Shown: positions 18,796 to 28,835 of the stretch, piece after piece
Numbering within the stretch: the stretch's first letter is position 1
Layout of the letters: each line of letters begins with the position of its first letter
Assembly (NCBI GenBank): GCA_903955385.1
Contig: CAJBNH010000115.1
Location: 1 to 40,569, forward strand
Length of the DNA: 40,569 nucleotides
From: an uncultured Myxococcales bacterium
GTDB lineage: Bacteria > Myxococcota_A > UBA9042
Reading direction: 5' to 3'
Program-made: the position numbers and the translations under genes
The notes under the pieces: model-generated
What the model saw: the letters and a program-made list of their open reading frames with translations, nothing else
Databases searched by the model: none
What the model was told of the DNA's origin: nothing

Positions 18796-19389
18796 ATGAG
18801 CGATCTGCACCACCAACCCCGCTCCCGTTTGCCGCACTTGCTGCGGCGCAGTGCGGCGTTTGCGGCGACCGCGGTGCTCGCGCTGACCCTGTTTGGATGC
18901 GCCAAGTCCCCCGCGGACCAGCTGGTAGAGCGCAGCGCCCGGCGAGTCGAAGACGGCATCGCGCTGATGCTGCAGGCCAAGGGGGACGAGTCCAAGCTCG
19001 TGCGTCTGGCCATGCGATACCGCGCCGACCACTACGCCGAGATCGTGCAGCTGCGCAAGGATGGCGACGCGCTGGGGGCCAAGCTGCCCGAAGTCGAACG
19101 GCGTGCGCTGGAACAACAGCTGCAGGCTCGCATCCAACCTTTGCTGGCCAAGCTGCAGGGCGAGTCGATGCGCTTCCCGCGGCCGGCCAAGGCGCTGCTG
19201 TTCCTTCGGCCCATCGTTCAGGTCGTCACACCGCGCCCTCGGCCCGACGGCAAGCTGCCGTGGCTGCCTGAGGTTCCGCCGCTGCCGCCTGAGCTCGGGG
19301 GGACTCCCGTGTTCCCGCCCGGCGAGCCGACGCCCGGCAGCGACCCGCACGGCCACGGTTCCGACGGCCACGAGCACGACCAGCCATGA
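18796..19389 (+). CDS. Small lipoprotein of unknown function, coupled to lnt
   Basis: 197 residues. The signal peptide ends in LTLFGC, a good lipobox with C35; Ala at +2 predicts the outer membrane. The middle is helical and charged (about 40-135, possible coiled coil). The tail is Pro-rich and ends in a His/Asp/Gly cluster (DPHGHGSDGHEHDQP) that could bind metal. No family is recognised. The ATG at 18796 lies just after a strong terminator and has no Shine-Dalgarno sequence; the frame is open upstream through the tRNA but that part is not protein-like. Its stop overlaps the lnt start (ATGA), so the two are translated together; Lnt would acylate this product among others. Confidence 0.72.
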   Translation: MSDLHHQPRSRLPHLLRRSAAFAATAVLALTLFGCAKSPADQLVERSARRVEDGIALMLQAKGDESKLVRLAMRYRADHYAEIVQLRKDGDALGAKLPEVERRALEQQLQARIQPLLAKLQGESMRFPRPAKALLFLRPIVQVVTPRPRPDGKLPWLPEVPPLPPELGGTPVFPPGEPTPGSDPHGHGSDGHEHDQP

Positions 19390-22115
19390 TGCCTTCCGTC
19401 CTCGTCCGCGCCGCCGCCGTCACGCTTGCTGCGACCACCGGCGTCGCGGTGTTTCTGGCCTATCCGGACTGGAACCACCATTATCTCGCATGGTTCGCGT
19501 ATGTACCGCTGCTGATTGCGGCCAGCGGCACCACGCCGCGCCAAGGCTTCTGGTTGGGTCTGCTGGCCGGCACGATCACCAATCTGGGCGGCTTCCACTG
19601 GATCACGGAGATGCTCGGCGAGTTCGGGCACATGTCCGCCCTGCCCGCTTGGGCCATCCTGTCCGTGCAAGCCGTCACACAAGGGCTGTCGGTCGCGATC
19701 GGCCTGTTCGCTTGGCGGTGGCTGGTGGCGCGCGGGGCTCCGGTCGCGGTGTCCGCGTTTCTGTGCCTGTGGCTGGGCGAGGTCGTCACGCCCATGCTGT
19801 TCCCCTGGTTCCTGGGCAACGCGATCACCCCGGAATTGCAGATGATCCAGATCGCCGAGCTCGGGGGGGTACACCTCGTGTCGGCGATGCTCTACGCGGC
19901 GAACGCAGCGCTGACCGAGCCGTTTCTGGCCCTGCTGCAGCGACGGCGCCCGGCGTGGCGCTTCCTGGCCGTCACGGCGGCGGGCGTGGCTCTTGCCGCG
20001 GGCTGGGGTGCCCTGCGCATCCCGCAAGTCGATGCAGCGCAAAAGGCCGCGCCGAAGATGAAGATCGGCATGGTCGAGGGCGACATCGGCATTTGGGAGA
20101 AGGAGGCCCGCTACCTCAGCGGCCCCGCCCGCTCGCAGACGCTTCGCCACAACCTGCTGAAACACCAACAGATGACGCGCAGTCTGGAGGCCAAGGGCGC
20201 CGAACTCGTGGTCTGGCCCGAGAGCGCCTACCAGCCGTTCAGCGACAACCCCGTGCTGCATACCACCGACCACTTCCTGCTGGTCGGGGCTGGCGGCGCA
20301 ATCCTGAGGCACGACGGCACGAAGCTGACGTCGGAGCCGCCGGATCGTCTGGGGCTGCCGCGCGATCTGGGACTGCTGAGCGCCCTTTCCTCGCCGCGTG
20401 GCGACCTGTGGCGGGCCATCGACGGCGGTCATCGTGTCGTGACGGTCACACCGGAAGGCGCATGGCGCGTCGACTTGCCGCAGGACGAAACGGGCGTCGC
20501 CACCGTGTCGCCCAACGTGGACGGAGACGGCAAGCTCGCCCCAGGACTCGTGGTTTCCCGCAGCGGCCGGGTGTGGAAGCTGGACTTCGAAGTGCCGGCC
20601 GCGCCCGTCACCGACAAGGGTGCGCCGGTCCAGGTGCCCGGGCAGGGTGCGCCGCGACCGCAGCTGCTGCCGGTGGCGCACGCGGGCAGTGCGGGACCGG
20701 TCGACGTGACCTCTGCCGCACGCAACTCCTTGGGAACTATCGTGTTGGTCGGTCGCTCTGGCGCCCTGCTGAAGGTCCAAGGCGACCTTCTGGTGCGGAT
20801 GCCTGCGCCAGCGCTGGCCGATCTGTGGAGCGTCTCGGGCGACCCCAGGGACGTGACCTTCCTGGCAGCAGGCGACGGCGGCACCGTCGTGATGGGAGAA
20901 GGCGACCGTTGGTTCGCGCAACGTGTCGGCGTCGAGACGTTCTATGCGACCTGGTTCGGCCCAGACGGCTCCATGTACGTCGCGGGCAAACACGGCGCCT
21001 GGTACACCAGAACCCCGCGTGGCAAATGGCAAACGCCAACTCGCGCGGCCGACGTGGACCTGCTGGCAGGCGCCACCGACGCTGAGGGGCGTGTGCTGCT
21101 GGTTGGCCGCGGCGGACGGGTGTTTCTGACCGACGACAATGGGGTGCCGCGCGAGGTCAACGCCGGCAGCCGAGGCGAGATCACGGCCGCAGTCGGCTTT
21201 CAGGCGCAGCCCGCGTGGGTGCTGCCGCGGAACGTGAAGCGGATCCTGCCAGCCGACCGGCCACTACCCGACGCCGCGCTGACCTTCCCCGCCGACGTTC
21301 AAGCCGACCTGTCGCAAGGGCTGCAGCAATCGTCTTCTCCCATCCGGGGTTTCCATGTGCCGCTGCTGTTCGGCGCGATGACCCAAGGGGGACGTCCGGA
21401 GCACTCCGACTCCACCTGCACCGAGTGCAACTACAACAGCGCCTTGCTGCTGGACGGCAAAGGCAACGTGCTGGGGATGCACGACAAGGCGTTTCTGCTC
21501 ATGTTCGGCGAGTACCTGCCGTTCGGTGAGCGCTTTCCGTGGCTGTACGACCTGTCGCCCGAGACGTCACGCTTCCAACCCGGCACCCGCACGGCACCGC
21601 TGGAGCTGGGCAAGGCGCGCATGGGGATGCTGATCTGTTACGAGGATCTGGTGCCGCGCTATGCCCGCCGCATCGCCGCGCACAACCCCAATGTCTTCGT
21701 AAACCTGACCAATGACGCATGGTTCGGTAAGACGGAGGAGCCCTACCACCACCTCAATCTCGCGCTAATGCGGACGGTGGAGTATCGCCGGTGGCTGCTG
21801 CGGTCGACCAACACAGGCGTCAGCGTCTTCATCGACGCCGTGGGGCGGCGGGTGGCCGAGACGTCGCTCGACGGCGCCGAAACGCTGCTGCAAGACGTGC
21901 CGTTGCTGGAGGACAGGACCGTCTACGCGAGCATGGGCGACTGGCCCCTGCTGGTGCTGGCGGCGTGGCTGTTGCTGCTGTGGGGACGTGCGCTGCGAGG
22001 ACCGGGCCCGGCAGGCAGGGCGAAGAAGACCGCGAAGCCCCGCAAGACCGCGCCGAAGAAGAAGTCGGCGAGTCCAGAGGCTCCCGAGATCATGGAACCG
22101 GCCAAGCTGAAGTAA
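19386..22115 (+). CDS. lnt: Apolipoprotein N-acyltransferase with a beta-propeller-like insertion in the nitrilase domain
   Basis: 909 residues against about 510 in E. coli. The N-terminal region (about 1-212) has the usual set of membrane helices. The nitrilase-like periplasmic domain has the catalytic triad E279 (VVWPESAY), K701 (MHDKAFLLMFGEYLPFGE) and C751 (GMLICYEDLVP). The domain then continues to VNLTNDAWFG and TNTGVS, with a last membrane helix (about 853-870) and a Lys/Pro-rich cytoplasmic tail. Between E279 and K701 lie 422 residues instead of about 68. The extra part (about 290-640, nt 20253-21305) consists of roughly 40-residue units of the form LVGxxGxhh...W (LVGRSGALLKVQGD, AAGDGGTVVMGEGDRW, VAGKHGAWYTRTPRGKW, LVGRGGRVFLTDD), like YCF48/WD-type blades. 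Lnt adds the third acyl chain to lipoproteins; the triad looks intact. The frame is continuous across the insertion. Confidence 0.93.
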   Translation: MMPSVLVRAAAVTLAATTGVAVFLAYPDWNHHYLAWFAYVPLLIAASGTTPRQGFWLGLLAGTITNLGGFHWITEMLGEFGHMSALPAWAILSVQAVTQGLSVAIGLFAWRWLVARGAPVAVSAFLCLWLGEVVTPMLFPWFLGNAITPELQMIQIAELGGVHLVSAMLYAANAALTEPFLALLQRRRPAWRFLAVTAAGVALAAGWGALRIPQVDAAQKAAPKMKIGMVEGDIGIWEKEARYLSGPARSQTLRHNLLKHQQMTRSLEAKGAELVVWPESAYQPFSDNPVLHTTDHFLLVGAGGAILRHDGTKLTSEPPDRLGLPRDLGLLSALSSPRGDLWRAIDGGHRVVTVTPEGAWRVDLPQDETGVATVSPNVDGDGKLAPGLVVSRSGRVWKLDFEVPAAPVTDKGAPVQVPGQGAPRPQLLPVAHAGSAGPVDVTSAARNSLGTIVLVGRSGALLKVQGDLLVRMPAPALADLWSVSGDPRDVTFLAAGDGGTVVMGEGDRWFAQRVGVETFYATWFGPDGSMYVAGKHGAWYTRTPRGKWQTPTRAADVDLLAGATDAEGRVLLVGRGGRVFLTDDNGVPREVNAGSRGEITAAVGFQAQPAWVLPRNVKRILPADRPLPDAALTFPADVQADLSQGLQQSSSPIRGFHVPLLFGAMTQGGRPEHSDSTCTECNYNSALLLDGKGNVLGMHDKAFLLMFGEYLPFGERFPWLYDLSPETSRFQPGTRTAPLELGKARMGMLICYEDLVPRYARRIAAHNPNVFVNLTNDAWFGKTEEPYHHLNLALMRTVEYRRWLLRSTNTGVSVFIDAVGRRVAETSLDGAETLLQDVPLLEDRTVYASMGDWPLLVLAAWLLLLWGRALRGPGPAGRAKKTAKPRKTAPKKKSASPEAPEIMEPAKLK

Positions 22116-22364: not shown

Positions 22365-24776
22365 CTACTTGCGAACCCGCAGCGTGGCCAGCGTGGTGAC
22401 TGTCTTGCCGTCCGGCGGGCTGATCTGCGTGGGCAGGAACTGATTCGCGTTGCCGTTGCCGTCCTTGGACACCAGCGCCGCAAAGAACTGCAGATCGGCG
22501 CCGCCCGCAGGCACTCCATTGGGAAACAGCGTCGCGATCGGGATCGAGGCCTCGATCACCTTGTTGGCGAAGTGCGCCTTGACCGGAAAGGCAAGCCACG
22601 AGAAGTCCTCGAGGTTGCCCAGCCCGCGCCAGCCCGCGCCGGTCGACTGTCCCGCATCGCCGCCGTCGAAGCCCGCCATGCCGATGGTGGCAAACGCGAA
22701 CTCGAAACCGTTGCTGGTGTTCGCGCCCACGAGCAGGTTGCTGATGGCGTCGTCGACCGCGCCGGCTTGGTCCTTCAGCAAGGCCGGGCTCTTGGGACCC
22801 GTGGTCTTCCCCGGATCGACGTCCACGTACAGCACGATGGCGTTGCCGGCCTCACAAACGCCCTGGATCCCGAAGTAGACGTTCTGATCGTCAAAGGCCG
22901 CCTGCAGCGTCGTCAATTCGTTCTTGTCCGCGCCCCAGTCGGTCACGACGGTGCTGGCCCCGGCAAGCGAGGTCGCGTCCCAATCGTTCAGGTTGCCGTC
23001 CAGCTGTGGCGACTCGAACGCCAGCAGCTCCAAGGCTCCGGCCAGCTTCAGCGTGCTCTGGCCCGGGACGACGACCGTGACGTCGGCCCAGCCGACCGGC
23101 AGGCCCGGCACCGTCACCGACAGCCCCTGTCCCGCCACGACCGTCGCGTCGGTGCCCACACCGGATGTCGCCGAGGGGTTCGTCGAGGTAAACGTCACCT
23201 TGTGCCATGGCTTGAGGTTGTCGCCCTTCAGTACGACCATCCCGCCGCCCTTTGCCGGGGCCCAGCCCGGCGTCACGGCGGTCAGCGTCGCGGGGCCGAC
23301 CAGCACGCACTTGCCACCGACGCACTCTTCGGTGTCCTTGCACGCGGGATCGCAGGGAATGGCCTCGCACTTGCCCTTGTTGCACTGAAAGCCATCGCTG
23401 CAGGCCGGCTCGCACGGCAGATCCTGGCACGCGCCCTTGACGCACTGCTGGCCTTCACCACACGCAGGGTCGCACGGCTTGTCTTCGCACGCGCCCTTGA
23501 CGCACTGCTGGCCCTCGCCACACACGGGGTCGCAGACCTTGTCCTCGCACTTGCCGGCGTTGCAGACCTGACCATCGCCACACACCGGGTCGCAAGCGTT
23601 GGGGTCCACGCAGGTGCCGCCCACACAGTTCCACCCTTGGGTGCAGGCGGGGTCGCACGCATTGGGGTCGACGCACTTGCCCTCGACGCACTGCAGGCCA
23701 CCCTCGCACGCCGGCACGCAACCTGCGATGGCCACGCACTTTCCTGAGACGCAGGCCTCGGTCTCCTTGCAGGCCGGGTCGCACGCCGCTCCGCCCGGAA
23801 CGACGATGGCGGTGTTCTCGAACTTGCCCTTGGAGTCCTTGGCGAACAGGACCGCCGCCGACTCCCACGCACCGCCCGCGCCAGTACCGGTCCAGGCCTC
23901 GACACCCTCGGCGTTGGCCTTCATCGCGCCTTTGTACTCCTGACCTTCCTCAGGCAGCGCATCGCCTTGCGTGGCGACGAACATGAACTGCACCTCATCG
24001 CCCGCCGGCAGCCCGCCGTCGTGCTTGCCCAGGTTCAGCAGGTGCACGTAGGTGTAGATGCCATCGTCGGCCACGGCGTCGCCCTTCTGGCCGTCGTCCA
24101 GCAGCTGCACCGGCGTCCACTGGTTCATCGAGCCCTTGAGGTAGAACTTGTGGGTCGCCGGCTTCCACAAGGCGAAATTCGGGTGCAGCGTCTGGGTGTC
24201 CAGCGTGACCTTCATGTCGATGGTGCCGAACTTCTTCAGCGTCTGCCCGGGGGCATCGATCACGCCGGTTGCGCCTGCGGGGACGACCAGCTTGCCGTTC
24301 GGTCCCACCCACATCCAGTTATCGAACTCGTTCAACACACCGTATTCGAAGGTGGTATCCGTCGCCGCCTTGAACTTGACCTGAGTGCTGAAGATGTGGT
24401 CGCCCTTGACCGCACCTTCCTTCTCATGGCCGCCCGCCGAAAGTGGTCCGTCGTCGTACAGCAGCGGATAGGGACCGTCGCTGGGCAGCCACGAGTCCGC
24501 CGGCACGATCTCGTTGGTCGTCTCGTCCCATGCGAACGAGCCAGTCCACTTCATGTCGCCGTCGCCGAACGTCTGGTTGGCCGAGTCGTCGACTTGAAAC
24601 GCCAGCCAGACGCCATCGCCGGGCAACACGGTCTCGCCGGTGGTATCGGTCGCGTCGCTGACGTCGGTCGCGTCGTTCGACGCCGCGTCCTGCGGGTCCT
24701 GTTCGGGAGTGCCGCAGGCGGAGAACGCCAAACAAGTCACGGCAAGGGCAGCGAACCAGCGGTGCGCGTGCAACAT
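22365..24776 (-). CDS. Large modular lipoprotein: beta domains, eight Cys-rich repeats, IPT/TIG and CBM9-like domain
   Basis: 803 residues. Lipobox FSAC with C21, then an Asp/Thr/Ser linker. Two beta modules follow (about 50-165 and 170-310), the second with KFYLKGSMNQW, like carbohydrate-binding E-set domains. Residues 332-490 hold eight Cys repeats of about 20 residues, CDPxCxxxxxCxxGxC. An IPT/TIG-like domain (about 495-590; LTAVTPGWAPAKGGGMVVLKG) leads into a C-terminal domain with LDGNLNDWDATS...VYFGIQG, resembling CBM9/DOMON-type glycan-binding folds. No catalytic site is seen; an outer-membrane surface binding protein is likely. ATG 24776 with AGGAG eight bases upstream. It lies 73 bases after the neighbouring peptidase-like lipoprotein on the same strand. 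Confidence 0.75.
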   Translation of the reverse strand: MLHAHRWFAALAVTCLAFSACGTPEQDPQDAASNDATDVSDATDTTGETVLPGDGVWLAFQVDDSANQTFGDGDMKWTGSFAWDETTNEIVPADSWLPSDGPYPLLYDDGPLSAGGHEKEGAVKGDHIFSTQVKFKAATDTTFEYGVLNEFDNWMWVGPNGKLVVPAGATGVIDAPGQTLKKFGTIDMKVTLDTQTLHPNFALWKPATHKFYLKGSMNQWTPVQLLDDGQKGDAVADDGIYTYVHLLNLGKHDGGLPAGDEVQFMFVATQGDALPEEGQEYKGAMKANAEGVEAWTGTGAGGAWESAAVLFAKDSKGKFENTAIVVPGGAACDPACKETEACVSGKCVAIAGCVPACEGGLQCVEGKCVDPNACDPACTQGWNCVGGTCVDPNACDPVCGDGQVCNAGKCEDKVCDPVCGEGQQCVKGACEDKPCDPACGEGQQCVKGACQDLPCEPACSDGFQCNKGKCEAIPCDPACKDTEECVGGKCVLVGPATLTAVTPGWAPAKGGGMVVLKGDNLKPWHKVTFTSTNPSATSGVGTDATVVAGQGLSVTVPGLPVGWADVTVVVPGQSTLKLAGALELLAFESPQLDGNLNDWDATSLAGASTVVTDWGADKNELTTLQAAFDDQNVYFGIQGVCEAGNAIVLYVDVDPGKTTGPKSPALLKDQAGAVDDAISNLLVGANTSNGFEFAFATIGMAGFDGGDAGQSTGAGWRGLGNLEDFSWLAFPVKAHFANKVIEASIPIATLFPNGVPAGGADLQFFAALVSKDGNGNANQFLPTQISPPDGKTVTTLATLRVRK
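23307..23783 (-). repeat. Tandem coding repeat: eight CDPxC Cys-rich units
   Basis: Eight in-frame units of 60-63 bases encode CDPxCxxxxxCxxGxC. Neighbouring units around 23428-23547 are nearly identical in DNA (GCGCCCTTGACGCACTGC recurs), pointing to recent duplication. These are protein repeats inside a CDS, not a CRISPR array. Confidence 0.85.
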
Positions 24777-24849
24777 GGCAGGGCTCCTGTCGGCGGTCCG
24801 GGAACCGCCAGGGGGGACAACGAGCGAGGGACTCAAGCGTTTCGGGAGG

Positions 24850-27489
24850 TTACTTTACTGTCACGTCGTCGAGCAAGATGGCGGTGTCGAGGATCGAGTC
24901 GCCAATGTCGGTCGCGAAGAACTTCAGCGTCACCTTCTTGCCAGAACCCGCAAGGGTCGACACGTCCTTGCACGAGGTCTGCCACGGCGTCATGAACACG
25001 CCGCCCACATCGAAGCTGACGTCCGCCTTGGTCAGGGTCTTCCACTGCTGTCCGCACTTGCACAGCGGCGACCCCGCCTCGCACGGGTACTTGCCATCGC
25101 AGTCGTAGGGACACAGCGGGTCGATCCAGACGTCGGTCAGCGTGACCTTACCGGTTTCGGCCGTCAGCGTGGCGGTAAAGCGGTCCATGTAGGCGGAACC
25201 GCAGTACTCCAGAAACTCCTCGCTGTAGAACTTCCAGTAGAAACAAAGCTCTTGCGTGGCGGGCGGGACGCAGAACGGCTGCTCCAGCGATCCGCTCTGG
25301 GCGGTAAAGCCAAGCCCCGTCGAGATGATGCCCATGAACTTGCCCTGCACGGGCGTGGTGACACCAAGCCGCGAAATCACCCGACCGTCGCCGATCTGCT
25401 TCCACCCGGTGACCTTGCCCAAGTCCCAGCCAGGATTCATCAATCCGCCCTCGCTGGCGCGCGCCTTGCTGTTGCCGACAAAGCGCATCCGCCCCGGCAA
25501 GGTCGGGTCCTGTGCGGTCGACGAGGCCTGCAGCACGTTCTCGTCCTTCTGCAGCAACCCCTCGAAGAACCCACCGCCCTCGGCAAACGCAAACGCGTTG
25601 GACACGTAGTCTGAGTAGCCGACGACAGCCGCCGCGCCGTTGCCCAGCAGCTGGACGGCCAGCGACCCGTTCCACAGCGACCGGCAAGCGCCCAAATAGA
25701 CGATGGAGGACGGGAAGGGCTCGATGCTATGGCGCTGGATGAACGAGGGCAGGACGCCGTAGGTCTCGTCGCCGATGACGACCCGACCGCGCATGATGTC
25801 GCCTTGGGTGTGGTCGACGCACACGCCGCTGGCGGTCTCTGTCTTGATGCACGTCTCACCGGCGGAACACCCCGACCCCTGCTGGTTGCACGACTTCTTG
25901 CCAGTCGACAGCGCCGAGCACGTGACCGGCTCGCCCGACCAGATGACCTCCTGCGAGCCCAAGTGCTCCCAGCCCAGCACTTGCTTGGCTTGGGTGTCCA
26001 TGCTGCCGAAGTACGCCTCGCCGTGACCGGAGATCGCGATGACGCCGTAGGTCGACATGGCCCGGTAGTACTTCAGCAACGCGCTCGACCCTGAGAGGGC
26101 GTCTACGCTGAACGGCGGGCACTGCTTTTCCTGCAGGACGGTGCCGGCGACCTCAGCCTCGTCTCCCCCTCCCACAACCTTGAATTCTTGGGCAAAGGGC
26201 GCCAGCGTCAGGGCTCGGCGGGTGCCGACGTTGTAGGTCTGCGGTGCTCCGTTGGGCAGACCAGGCTCGCCGGGACCACCGCGGGTGCCGGCCGGTGCCA
26301 GATTCAGAGCGCCGACGCGACCGCTGAGATAGCGCACCCACACGCCGTAGCCTCCACCGCTGGCAGGACCGGCTTCCGCGACGATGGAGCTGCCCTTGAG
26401 CGAGGCAATCGCCTGTGCTTGCGCCTGGACGGGGCCGTCGGCCTGCAACGCCGCAAGATAGGCCGCCTTCACCTGCTTCTGCAGCGACACGATCTGGGTG
26501 CACTCGGTCTGGTCGAACCGCTGGACGACGTCGACCTGTGCGACCGGGGACAGGGCCTCGAACGTCTTGCCCGGCAACGTCACCGTCGCACGGACCCGGA
26601 AGTACATGGTCTTCGGGGCGCTGGGGGACACGTTGAGGCAGTTCGAAAAGACGCTGTCTTTCTGGACGTCATCGCAATTCGTCGAGCTGCCGGAGTCGAC
26701 CAGCTTGGTGTGCTCCTGAACCAGCTTTCCCGCCGCGTCGACCTCAATCAGCTGAATCGTCGCGGGGTTGACGACGCTTGAGCCATCCGGCCCCGGGGAC
26801 GCCGCCGTCAGCCGCATCCGCACCACCAGCTTGGCGGGTTCGTTGACGAACAACAGGTCGGGTGCCACCTCTGGCGGCCCTTCGAACGAGAAGTACGGGT
26901 TGTAGGTCACCCGCACGCTGTCGGTGACGATGGCGGTGCCCTTGGTCGCCGTGACGGTCAGGATGTTGTCCCCCGGTTCCAGCAGGATGATCGGGCTCTG
27001 CCAATACGCACTGGGGGTGATGCTGCCGGTCTGGCCGTTGCTGTTGCTCCACGTCATCGAGTCGGGGCCGCCGTAAACAACGCCGGCGAGCTGCATCGCC
27101 TGTCCCTCGCTCTGCAGCGACTCGCGACCTCCGGGGCCCAGAATCTTGACCAGCAACTCTGCGAAATCATCGGGATTGGTCGTGTCGGTATCGGGGCTGA
27201 CGTCAGAATCCTTCGCCACGTCGGTGTCGGCGATCACGTCCGTTCCCGGCGCGGTGCCATCGGCCTCAGTCGTGTCGTCGATAGCCGAATCTGGTGTGAT
27301 CTCGCTCACCTCCTCAGTGGCACCCGCATCCACCGTCTCGGTGGCGTCACTGGCGACATCGACTGAGGTCTCAGCCCCATCGGCCGCCGCGTCGGTCGTG
27401 CCGTCCTCGCCGCCGGACGAGCTGCAGGCCGCACTGCACAGGACGATCGCAGCCCCGACGGCCAGCCACGTGCTCCACCGCTTCTTCAT
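24850..27489 (-). CDS. Lipoprotein with clan CD (caspase/gingipain-like) cysteine peptidase domain
   Basis: 879 residues. A signal peptide ends in LCSAAC (C22), followed by a linker of about 85 residues rich in Asp, Thr and Ala. A beta region (about 110-325) may be Ig-like. The peptidase-like region has H489 in VIAISGHGEAYFG and C602 in SIVYLGACRSLWNG, matching the hydrophobic-strand-then-HG and GAC dyad of clan CD peptidases (C25, caspase, CHAT). A Cys-rich insert (about 524-557) lies between the two. The C-terminal 170 residues (ending DTAILLDDVTV) resemble a choice-of-anchor beta domain. A surface cysteine peptidase is likely; specificity is unknown. ATG 27489 starts the signal peptide after GGGGGA; the 102 codons upstream are not protein-like. 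Confidence 0.78.
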   Translation of the reverse strand: MKKRWSTWLAVGAAIVLCSAACSSSGGEDGTTDAAADGAETSVDVASDATETVDAGATEEVSEITPDSAIDDTTEADGTAPGTDVIADTDVAKDSDVSPDTDTTNPDDFAELLVKILGPGGRESLQSEGQAMQLAGVVYGGPDSMTWSNSNGQTGSITPSAYWQSPIILLEPGDNILTVTATKGTAIVTDSVRVTYNPYFSFEGPPEVAPDLLFVNEPAKLVVRMRLTAASPGPDGSSVVNPATIQLIEVDAAGKLVQEHTKLVDSGSSTNCDDVQKDSVFSNCLNVSPSAPKTMYFRVRATVTLPGKTFEALSPVAQVDVVQRFDQTECTQIVSLQKQVKAAYLAALQADGPVQAQAQAIASLKGSSIVAEAGPASGGGYGVWVRYLSGRVGALNLAPAGTRGGPGEPGLPNGAPQTYNVGTRRALTLAPFAQEFKVVGGGDEAEVAGTVLQEKQCPPFSVDALSGSSALLKYYRAMSTYGVIAISGHGEAYFGSMDTQAKQVLGWEHLGSQEVIWSGEPVTCSALSTGKKSCNQQGSGCSAGETCIKTETASGVCVDHTQGDIMRGRVVIGDETYGVLPSFIQRHSIEPFPSSIVYLGACRSLWNGSLAVQLLGNGAAAVVGYSDYVSNAFAFAEGGGFFEGLLQKDENVLQASSTAQDPTLPGRMRFVGNSKARASEGGLMNPGWDLGKVTGWKQIGDGRVISRLGVTTPVQGKFMGIISTGLGFTAQSGSLEQPFCVPPATQELCFYWKFYSEEFLEYCGSAYMDRFTATLTAETGKVTLTDVWIDPLCPYDCDGKYPCEAGSPLCKCGQQWKTLTKADVSFDVGGVFMTPWQTSCKDVSTLAGSGKKVTLKFFATDIGDSILDTAILLDDVTVK

Positions 27490-27594
27490 ACGCGTTCCCC
27501 CGGGCAGGCACCCCGGCCCCCCGTCGTCATCCCAAATCCGCTCGTCGCGAGCCGTGCCGATTGTCAGCCGACCCACGCCTGAGGCGAACCCGTA

Positions 27595-27623
27595 AGAATA
27601 CCGACTAGCCCACCATGAAGCAA
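27595..27623 (-). promoter_or_regulatory. Promoter of the clan CD lipoprotein gene
   Basis: TTGCTT (27623-27618), a 17-base spacer and TATTCT (27600-27595) on the minus strand. Predicted start near 27588 gives a leader of about 100 bases. This lies in the 197-base gap after the diacylglycerol-kinase-like gene. Confidence 0.6.
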
Positions 27624-27686
27624 CTGAGGGAACCGCGTCGTGATCGGCCGCTTCGAGACGGTGAACGGCGTTGGTGGCCCCAACGG

Positions 27687-28835
27687 CTACCACTCGTCGG
27701 CAGTGAAATCTCCTGGCACCGCGTGCAGCCGCTCTGTGCTCGCCGTGACGACCAGAGGCTGACGTGCCGATGACACGGCGGGCTCGCTGAAGCACTCACC
27801 GTCCAGTGTGTAGGGACCCGACAGATCCATGCGCGTCGCCTCGGGAAAGTCGCGCACGCCCGCGACCGATCGCTCCGACATCAGCCCCGGAACGACGCGC
27901 ATCAGCCGCGACAGGTCGGTCTCCTCCACCACCCGCGCGGCAAATCCTGGCCGATGCAGGGATCTTCGGATGGTGCGCACCGAGCCGATCGCCAGCGTCA
28001 GGTCCACCGTCGAGGCCACGACCCCGGAGTACCGGCCAAAGGTCTGGTCATCGACGCGCAAGTCGGCATACGGCCCCAGCTTCCAGCCCTCGGTGTCCCA
28101 AAGCTCGCCCCCCACCAGCGCTCCGCGGAAGAACTCGAGGAGGAACCGGGACAGCCCCAAGTAGCCTGCTCCAAAGCGCCCGTAGAGCTCCAGCGCGTGA
28201 AACGCCGCCTCGGATCCGAACACGAAGCCCCAGCGCGGCGGCAGATCCGTCCACGACGGCGTGCGCGGAGCCGCTGCGCCGTCCGACTGTGACTCTGGCG
28301 CCACGCCGCAACGCACTTCGAGCAGGGGCAAGCGCCTTGCCGGCACACGGGACAGCGGCGCGCCTTGAAAATAGCGCAAGAAGTTCCGAAGGGTATCTCG
28401 CGGGGCACCGTGGATGGCGACCGTGCGACCGACGATGTTCAGCGTGCCGCCGTTGAGGATCAGCAGCCTCGGCAGGGGCGGACGCACGCCCGTCGCCGCT
28501 TCCGCCTCGCGTCCCAAGGCCAGCAACGCGTTGACGACGTGGTGGACCGTTCCGTCTCCTCCGGCCACCGCCAACACGTTCGCCGCGCGCACGCACAGCA
28601 GAAACGCAAGCGCGCGCCGCAGGGACGCCAGATCGTGCGTCTCCATCCACGCATCGCGCTCACCCAGCAGGTCGGCAAGGGCCGCGCGCTCTCCCGAACG
28701 CCGCAGTCGCCGCGCCTTGGGATTCATCAACAGGCCCACCCGCACGCGAGCCGACGGCTGACACGCGCGCTGGCGAGTCTCGACGCCTTCAGCCGACAGG
28801 GCCAACTGGACGGGGTCGGTGTCGAAGGTCGGCAT
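27687..28835 (-). CDS. Diacylglycerol kinase-family lipid kinase
   Basis: 382 residues. The N-terminal half has the DAGK catalytic pattern: VGLLMNPKARRLRR (32-46) and the nucleotide-binding loop AVAGGDGTVHHVVNALL (GGDGT 92-96). The next loop, normally LPxGTxNDFA, reads LNGGTLNIVGR (127-137). The C-terminal half is beta-rich as in YegS/DgkB proteins. These enzymes phosphorylate diacylglycerol or related lipids with ATP at the inner membrane; sphingosine or another lipid is possible. The variant second loop leaves the substrate open. ATG 28835 with AAGGA about nine bases upstream. It is divergent from the double-FHA gene. Confidence 0.82.
   Translation of the reverse strand: MPTFDTDPVQLALSAEGVETRQRACQPSARVRVGLLMNPKARRLRRSGERAALADLLGERDAWMETHDLASLRRALAFLLCVRAANVLAVAGGDGTVHHVVNALLALGREAEAATGVRPPLPRLLILNGGTLNIVGRTVAIHGAPRDTLRNFLRYFQGAPLSRVPARRLPLLEVRCGVAPESQSDGAAAPRTPSWTDLPPRWGFVFGSEAAFHALELYGRFGAGYLGLSRFLLEFFRGALVGGELWDTEGWKLGPYADLRVDDQTFGRYSGVVASTVDLTLAIGSVRTIRRSLHRPGFAARVVEETDLSRLMRVVPGLMSERSVAGVRDFPEATRMDLSGPYTLDGECFSEPAVSSARQPLVVTASTERLHAVPGDFTADEW

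Follow-up and report, generated by a model that had tools for sequence, protein, structure and literature searches.

The lnt locus and its neighbourhood

The stretch of DNA analysed here, referred to as the window, comprises 40,569 nucleotides from an uncultured Myxococcales bacterium. It contains a gene for an apolipoprotein N-acyltransferase (Lnt) that is read as a single uninterrupted frame of 909 codons (19386-22115, forward strand). A gene for a putative lipoprotein is located directly upstream of the lnt gene, with which it overlaps by 4 bp. The following features were assigned:

18796-19389, forward strand: putative lipoprotein of about 197 residues with the lipobox LFGC and a His-rich C-terminal tail (start codon chosen by eye)
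19386-22115, forward strand: propeller-bearing apolipoprotein N-acyltransferase, 909 amino acids plus stop codon (reading frame, Pfam, TIGR00546 and structural model)
19386-20237, forward strand: residues 1-284, comprising the seven transmembrane helices of the N-terminal region and the beginning of the nitrilase domain as far as the loop that follows the catalytic Glu (LNT_N and model)
20220-20222, forward strand: codon of E279, the catalytic Glu, corresponding to E267 of E. coli (alignment)
20259-21203, forward strand: residues 292-606, seven-bladed YCF48/WD-like beta-propeller (model, fold comparison and profile)
21204-21347, forward strand: residues 607-654, conserved linker following the propeller, with the pattern LPR..(K/D)..I...PLP...RGF, also present in propeller-less relatives (sequences of relatives)
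21348-22001, forward strand: residues 655-872, rest of the nitrilase domain together with the eighth transmembrane helix (Pfam and model)
21486-21488, forward strand: codon of K701, the catalytic Lys, corresponding to K335 of E. coli (alignment)
21636-21638, forward strand: codon of C751, the catalytic Cys, corresponding to C387 of E. coli (alignment)
22002-22112, forward strand: residues 873-909, disordered tail rich in Lys and Arg that is expected to be cytoplasmic (sequence; pLDDT below 50 for most residues)

The putative lipoprotein encoded upstream has no Pfam or NCBIfam match. Within the window's own family, homologues of it directly precede lnt at 16 further loci, and about half of these loci show the same 4-bp overlap. 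Such translational coupling suggests a joint function of lipoprotein and enzyme in the window's family. Elsewhere in the class, the position upstream of lnt is occupied, depending on the family, by a gene for a YegS-type lipid kinase, an iron-sulphur protein or a YggU protein. The upstream lipoprotein was also considered as a general reason for the presence of the propeller. This idea was rejected because no family other than the window's was found to have the lipoprotein, whereas the propeller occurs throughout the class.

Several other genes of the neighbourhood deserve mention. Two large putative secreted lipoproteins adjoin lnt and are encoded on the reverse strand, pointing towards it (22365-24836 and 24850-27795). 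Both contain choice-of-anchor domains, that of 24850-27795 only below its cut-off. Moreover, a YegS-type diacylglycerol kinase was recognised by eye at 27687-28835 (reverse strand), and a YegS-type kinase gene is located directly upstream of the propeller-bearing Lnt in other families of the class.

Lnt identity of the 909-residue protein

Lnt is viewed as a two-domain enzyme with a broad substrate range, and both domains are recognised in the 909-residue protein by Pfam models above their cut-offs (LNT_N, 1.6e-20, residues 19-175; CN_hydrolase, 2e-23). The protein also scores 226.6 bits against the NCBIfam equivalog model lnt (TIGR00546), which is above the curated cut-off of 132.9 bits. A previous sequence-only reading of the locus had recognised the 909-codon frame and had named E279, K701 and C751 as catalytic residues. 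Alignment to Lnt of E. coli K-12 confirmed these residue numbers exactly, the three positions being equivalent to E267, K335 and C387. In the same alignment, E709, Y752 and E753 correspond to E343, Y388 and E389 of the E. coli enzyme. Equivalents of R139, W237, P353, F358 and M362 could not be recognised in a loose alignment of the window's protein to E. coli Lnt, and they are also missing from Lnt enzymes of ordinary length from deltaproteobacteria and Myxococcota. For instance, W237 and R139 have no recognisable counterpart in the shorter Myxococcota or Geobacter-type enzymes either.

A structural model was generated with AlphaFold2 using an alignment of 42 sequences (mean pLDDT 88.4, pTM 0.88). 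Eight membrane helices are predicted, and the nitrilase domain is located between helices 7 and 8. The model superimposes on E. coli Lnt (5n6h) with a Z score of 33.3 over 473 residues (VIA-align). Thus, the window's enzyme shares with the Lnt structures of E. coli and Pseudomonas aeruginosa (5n6h, 5n6m) the eight helices, the nitrilase domain, the Glu/Lys/Cys residues and the equivalents of E343, Y388 and E389. It differs from both by about 354 extra residues, which form a propeller after the catalytic Glu. Judged by its sequence, the open reading frame is a genuine Lnt with intact catalytic residues, and N-acyltransferase activity would be expected from the family assignment and the conservation of these residues.

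A seven-bladed propeller between the catalytic Glu and Lys

The distance between the catalytic Glu and Lys is 422 residues in the 909-residue Lnt and 68 residues in the E. coli enzyme. The resulting surplus of about 354 residues agrees with the roughly 350 that had been estimated from the sequence. In the model, residues 292-606 form seven four-stranded blades that are arranged in a closed ring, and the pLDDT is mostly above 90. The inner strand of blade 1 (residues 599-604) is contributed by the C-terminal end of the insert, while its other three strands (297-316) come from the N-terminal end. Building one blade from both ends of the domain is the usual way in which propellers are closed. Fold comparison aligned residues 295-607 of the model with the seven-bladed designed protein 7bid at a Z score of 29.4 (VIA-align). 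The suggestion that a beta-propeller lies between the catalytic Glu and Lys and faces the periplasm is therefore borne out by structure prediction and fold comparison, as well as by conservation across the class. A predicted structure lacking a propeller in residues 290-640 would have spoken against it; the model instead places one at about 292-606. However, the propeller had been thought to extend to about nucleotide 21305. The domain itself stands but ends near residue 606 (about nucleotide 21203), and residues 607-654 constitute a separate linker.

The insert of the window's own protein has no Pfam match, including to YCF48 (PF14870). The Pfam YCF48 model directly matches 5 of 35 relatives (best E-value 9.9e-08), and YCF48 chains are matched with E-values of about 1e-10 to 1e-11 when a profile built from all 35 is used. 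Moreover, a "VGxxG...W" unit recurs every 40 residues or so in the inserts of the relatives, which fits the propeller-like units of this length that had been proposed for the window's protein. On these grounds, the insert can be described as YCF48/WD-like and is probably related to these propellers. YCF48 (2xbg, 5ojr, 8am5), which likewise has seven blades and VGxxG units of about 40 residues, is among the nearest natural relatives of solved structure as judged by profile. However, YCF48 is a free-standing lipoprotein involved in photosystem II assembly, whereas the propeller of the window is a domain within an enzyme.

The nearest described addition of a domain to Lnt is that in Ppm1 of Mycobacterium tuberculosis, in which Lnt is fused to a polyprenol-phosphate mannose synthase (PMC3460810). 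Here too, Lnt and an extra domain are parts of one polypeptide, but the additional domain of Ppm1 is a C-terminal enzyme, while that of the window's Lnt is a propeller inside the nitrilase domain. The open-licence literature searched here yielded no report of an Lnt that contains a propeller insertion, although absence from this literature is weak evidence. The propeller-bearing Lnt can be classified as a novel form of a known enzyme, and its anatomy can be regarded as close to certain.

Position of the propeller relative to the active site

The nitrilase domain of Lnt is periplasmic, and a funnel admits the phospholipid and the diacylated apolipoprotein to the catalytic Cys. In the window's enzyme, the insertion point is the loop that follows the strand ending in the catalytic Glu and leads to the second helix. 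Since membrane helices 7 and 8 flank the insert, it is expected on the periplasmic side. In the crystal structure of E. coli Lnt, the funnel that leads from the membrane to Cys387 is surrounded by arms, which consist of loops at the front of the nitrilase domain, and it was proposed that these arms guide the substrates (PMC5500888). A loop leading to the second helix is listed as Arm 5, and its first strand was named beta1 (PMC5500888). We read Arm 5 as the loop that bears the insert. Placing the propeller beside the active site, at an arm of the funnel, is well founded as judged by analogy with the E. coli enzyme.

Distribution in the class and the phylum

To survey the spread of the insert, whole-genome searches were combined with reading of the genes in 52 genomes of the window's Myxococcota class. 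The gene is present in 49 of the 52 genomes, and 46 of these 49 carry the propeller at one and the same position. This count includes one shortened form with a Glu-Lys interval of 280 residues as well as a few genes that are split between contigs, in which the propeller was read in the N-terminal piece. Two genomes have a propeller-less gene (G024, interval 112; G047, interval 135), and in a third (G046) the gene is cut by the end of the contig. Moreover, one genome (G044) possesses one copy with and one copy without the propeller. The propeller-less genes of G024 and G047 and the coexistence of both forms in G044 indicate that the propeller is not strictly required. GTDB records of the same genomes are named as uncultured Myxococcales, Bradymonadales, Myxococcota and "Deltaproteobacteria".

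It could be argued that the frame results from an assembly or binning artefact that joined two genes, an error that the sequence-only reading had named as a possible refutation. We found no support for such an event; dozens of genomes from many genera, each assembled independently, share the insert in an open frame, with identical position and junctions. Thus, the artefact is excluded for all practical purposes.

The search was extended to 106 genomes of the phylum that do not belong to the class. About 15 of them with a high score or a long frame were selected, and their genes were read. None of these roughly 15 Myxococcota genomes encodes a propeller in Lnt. Their loops are short, moderately extended, or about 190-200 residues long with a different insert.

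Two further observations concern individual sequences. A shortened propeller-bearing Lnt with an interval of 280 residues and about three blades fewer (L072 and G050 contig C107, L166) falls inside the propeller group and could be a real partial propeller. Moreover, a genome whose record is labelled Klebsiella pneumoniae (L033, CAMDBH010000023.1) encodes a propeller-bearing Lnt and groups with these Myxococcota; the label is evidently wrong.

History of the loop

The intervals between the catalytic Glu and Lys in related Lnt enzymes form a series of sizes, with 61-66, about 84-135, about 191-200 and about 379-473 residues. The segment that follows the propeller, LPR(D/N)V..I..S..PLP...RGF, also occurs in the forms with intervals of 108-135 residues. 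Thus, either the propeller was inserted into an already extended loop or these forms have lost it. In the forms with 191-200 residues, a helical domain is predicted with confidence in place of the propeller (L078, pLDDT 87.8). This alpha-helical insert of about 130 residues occupies the same loop in L078, L075, L077 and L080-L084, which belong to a UBA4248-type lineage that includes rumen genomes. Like the window's enzyme, these proteins have an intact Lnt core, but their insert is alpha-helical and not a propeller.

In a free tree calculated from the Lnt core only, the propeller-bearing forms fall into two or three groups; the window's family stands beside some of the 108-135 forms and other propeller-bearing forms are located elsewhere. 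However, a single propeller clade was not rejected by the AU test (p = 0.213; p = 0.67 in a test with more columns). The third-position GC content of the insert (0.81) is close to that of the flanks (0.86 and 0.85), and the codon composition thus gives no sign of a recently acquired foreign piece. A scan with the insert alone yielded no matches because the insert diverges quickly. A mobile origin was considered and rejected: none of the matching places in the plasmid collection reaches 80% coverage of the protein, and viral contigs yielded no relative. The best among the plasmid matches listed cover about 25% of the protein, namely the C-terminal enzyme part.

The genome of the window also contains long frames with many YCF48-like propeller repeats (G000 contig C122 at about 105000-111000, and also contigs C196 and C85). 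It is possible that these repeat proteins were donors of the Lnt insert. Indeed, the propeller might be a passenger of stable fold, derived from a resident YCF48-like repeat protein and having little function. The abundance of other YCF48-like propellers in the genome, the poor conservation of the surface, the members without a propeller and the shortened form with an interval of 280 residues are all compatible with this explanation. However, an open frame has been retained in 45 of the 49 genomes, in addition to the one shortened form, and across many families, which makes the passenger improbable.

Conservation of the propeller and its possible roles

Within the window's family, the propeller is 44% identical, compared to about 72% for the nitrilase parts, and its surface loops are poorly conserved (mean about 0.4-0.57). 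No conserved binding face was found on the propeller, the non-glycine loops of both faces being about equally variable. The sole notable polar motif, S335..R338.D340, is located in blade 2, in the loop that precedes strand B. With its variable surface loops and an identity below that of the nitrilase parts, the propeller has no evident conserved ligand site. The position of the insert, its retention in 46 of 49 genomes and the occurrence of a different domain in the same loop of a sister lineage favour a role at the active site.

Such a role could be purely steric. The propeller might act as a gate or lid that narrows access to the funnel, or it might steady the arms of the active site, in either case without binding a partner. 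Its location in a funnel arm (PMC5500888) would suit this explanation, as would a propeller whose core is kept while its surface diverges. The unlike helical domain in the same loop elsewhere in the Myxococcota would point in the same direction, as if bulk mattered more than surface. However, a large closed fold of seven blades is costly for a mere plug, and propeller-less relatives have evidently been retained. We consider a gate rather unlikely, but a serious rival of the docking model described below.

YCF48 and WD propellers commonly serve as scaffolds for protein-protein interactions. The propeller might accordingly tether Lnt to another envelope machinery, namely Lsp, the Lol release complex, the cell wall or a secretion apparatus, and thereby have a role in assembly and not in the handling of substrates. 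Lgt is present in all 33 good genomes of the class, so lipidated substrates are to be expected. Matches to LolCE-like proteins were obtained at the E-value level in all 52 class genomes, none of them over the family cut-off. As matches to the lolCE model were obtained in 13 of 14 control genomes, too, the Lol search says little. The presence of Lgt and the LolCE-like matches are in line with tethering, but there is no fused or consistently adjoining partner and the upstream gene differs from family to family. Tethering appears unlikely but is, like the gate, a serious rival.

We tentatively prefer the view that the protein is an active Lnt in which the propeller serves as a periplasmic platform for docking or guiding. 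This platform fits best because the sequences of the apolipoproteins themselves vary, as does the surface of the propeller; a partner of the propeller was not found. According to this docking model, the enzyme, in which a seven-bladed propeller has replaced the loop after the catalytic Glu, would retain the ping-pong N-acylation of the amino-terminal Cys of lipoproteins. The propeller, tethered by both of its ends at the rim of the funnel, would keep an apolipoprotein near the portal by holding either its folded part or a partner that delivers it. The lipoprotein encoded directly upstream is a candidate client in the window's family, and general substrates may be served by a second Lnt of normal length.

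A second Lnt and its implications

The genome of the window indeed encodes a second Lnt of 513 residues (G000 contig C8, 81988-83505; L104:8007-9545), which scores over the lnt cut-off and has kept the catalytic residues. The propeller-bearing enzyme is therefore one of two Lnt enzymes. The gene of the 513-residue Lnt is located between rpoA and a pseudouridine synthase gene. The relatives of this enzyme form a separate clade that spans the class, and genomes of the class usually possess such a second Lnt of normal length.

A broader proposal extends the docking model. The loop after the catalytic Glu may be a site of domain insertion through which the Myxococcota specialise Lnt, one class with a propeller and another with a helical domain, and the two Lnt enzymes may divide the lipoproteins among them, the propeller selecting the clients of the larger one. 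We regard this combination as speculative and somewhat on the unlikely side. If it were true, the propeller-bearing form would be a substrate-selective Lnt. The presence of the propeller in nearly the entire class, of another domain in a sister lineage and of two Lnt enzymes in one genome suggests that N-acylation of lipoproteins can be selective or regulated. Moreover, the propeller-bearing enzyme reveals the loop of Lnt at which a large insertion is tolerated.
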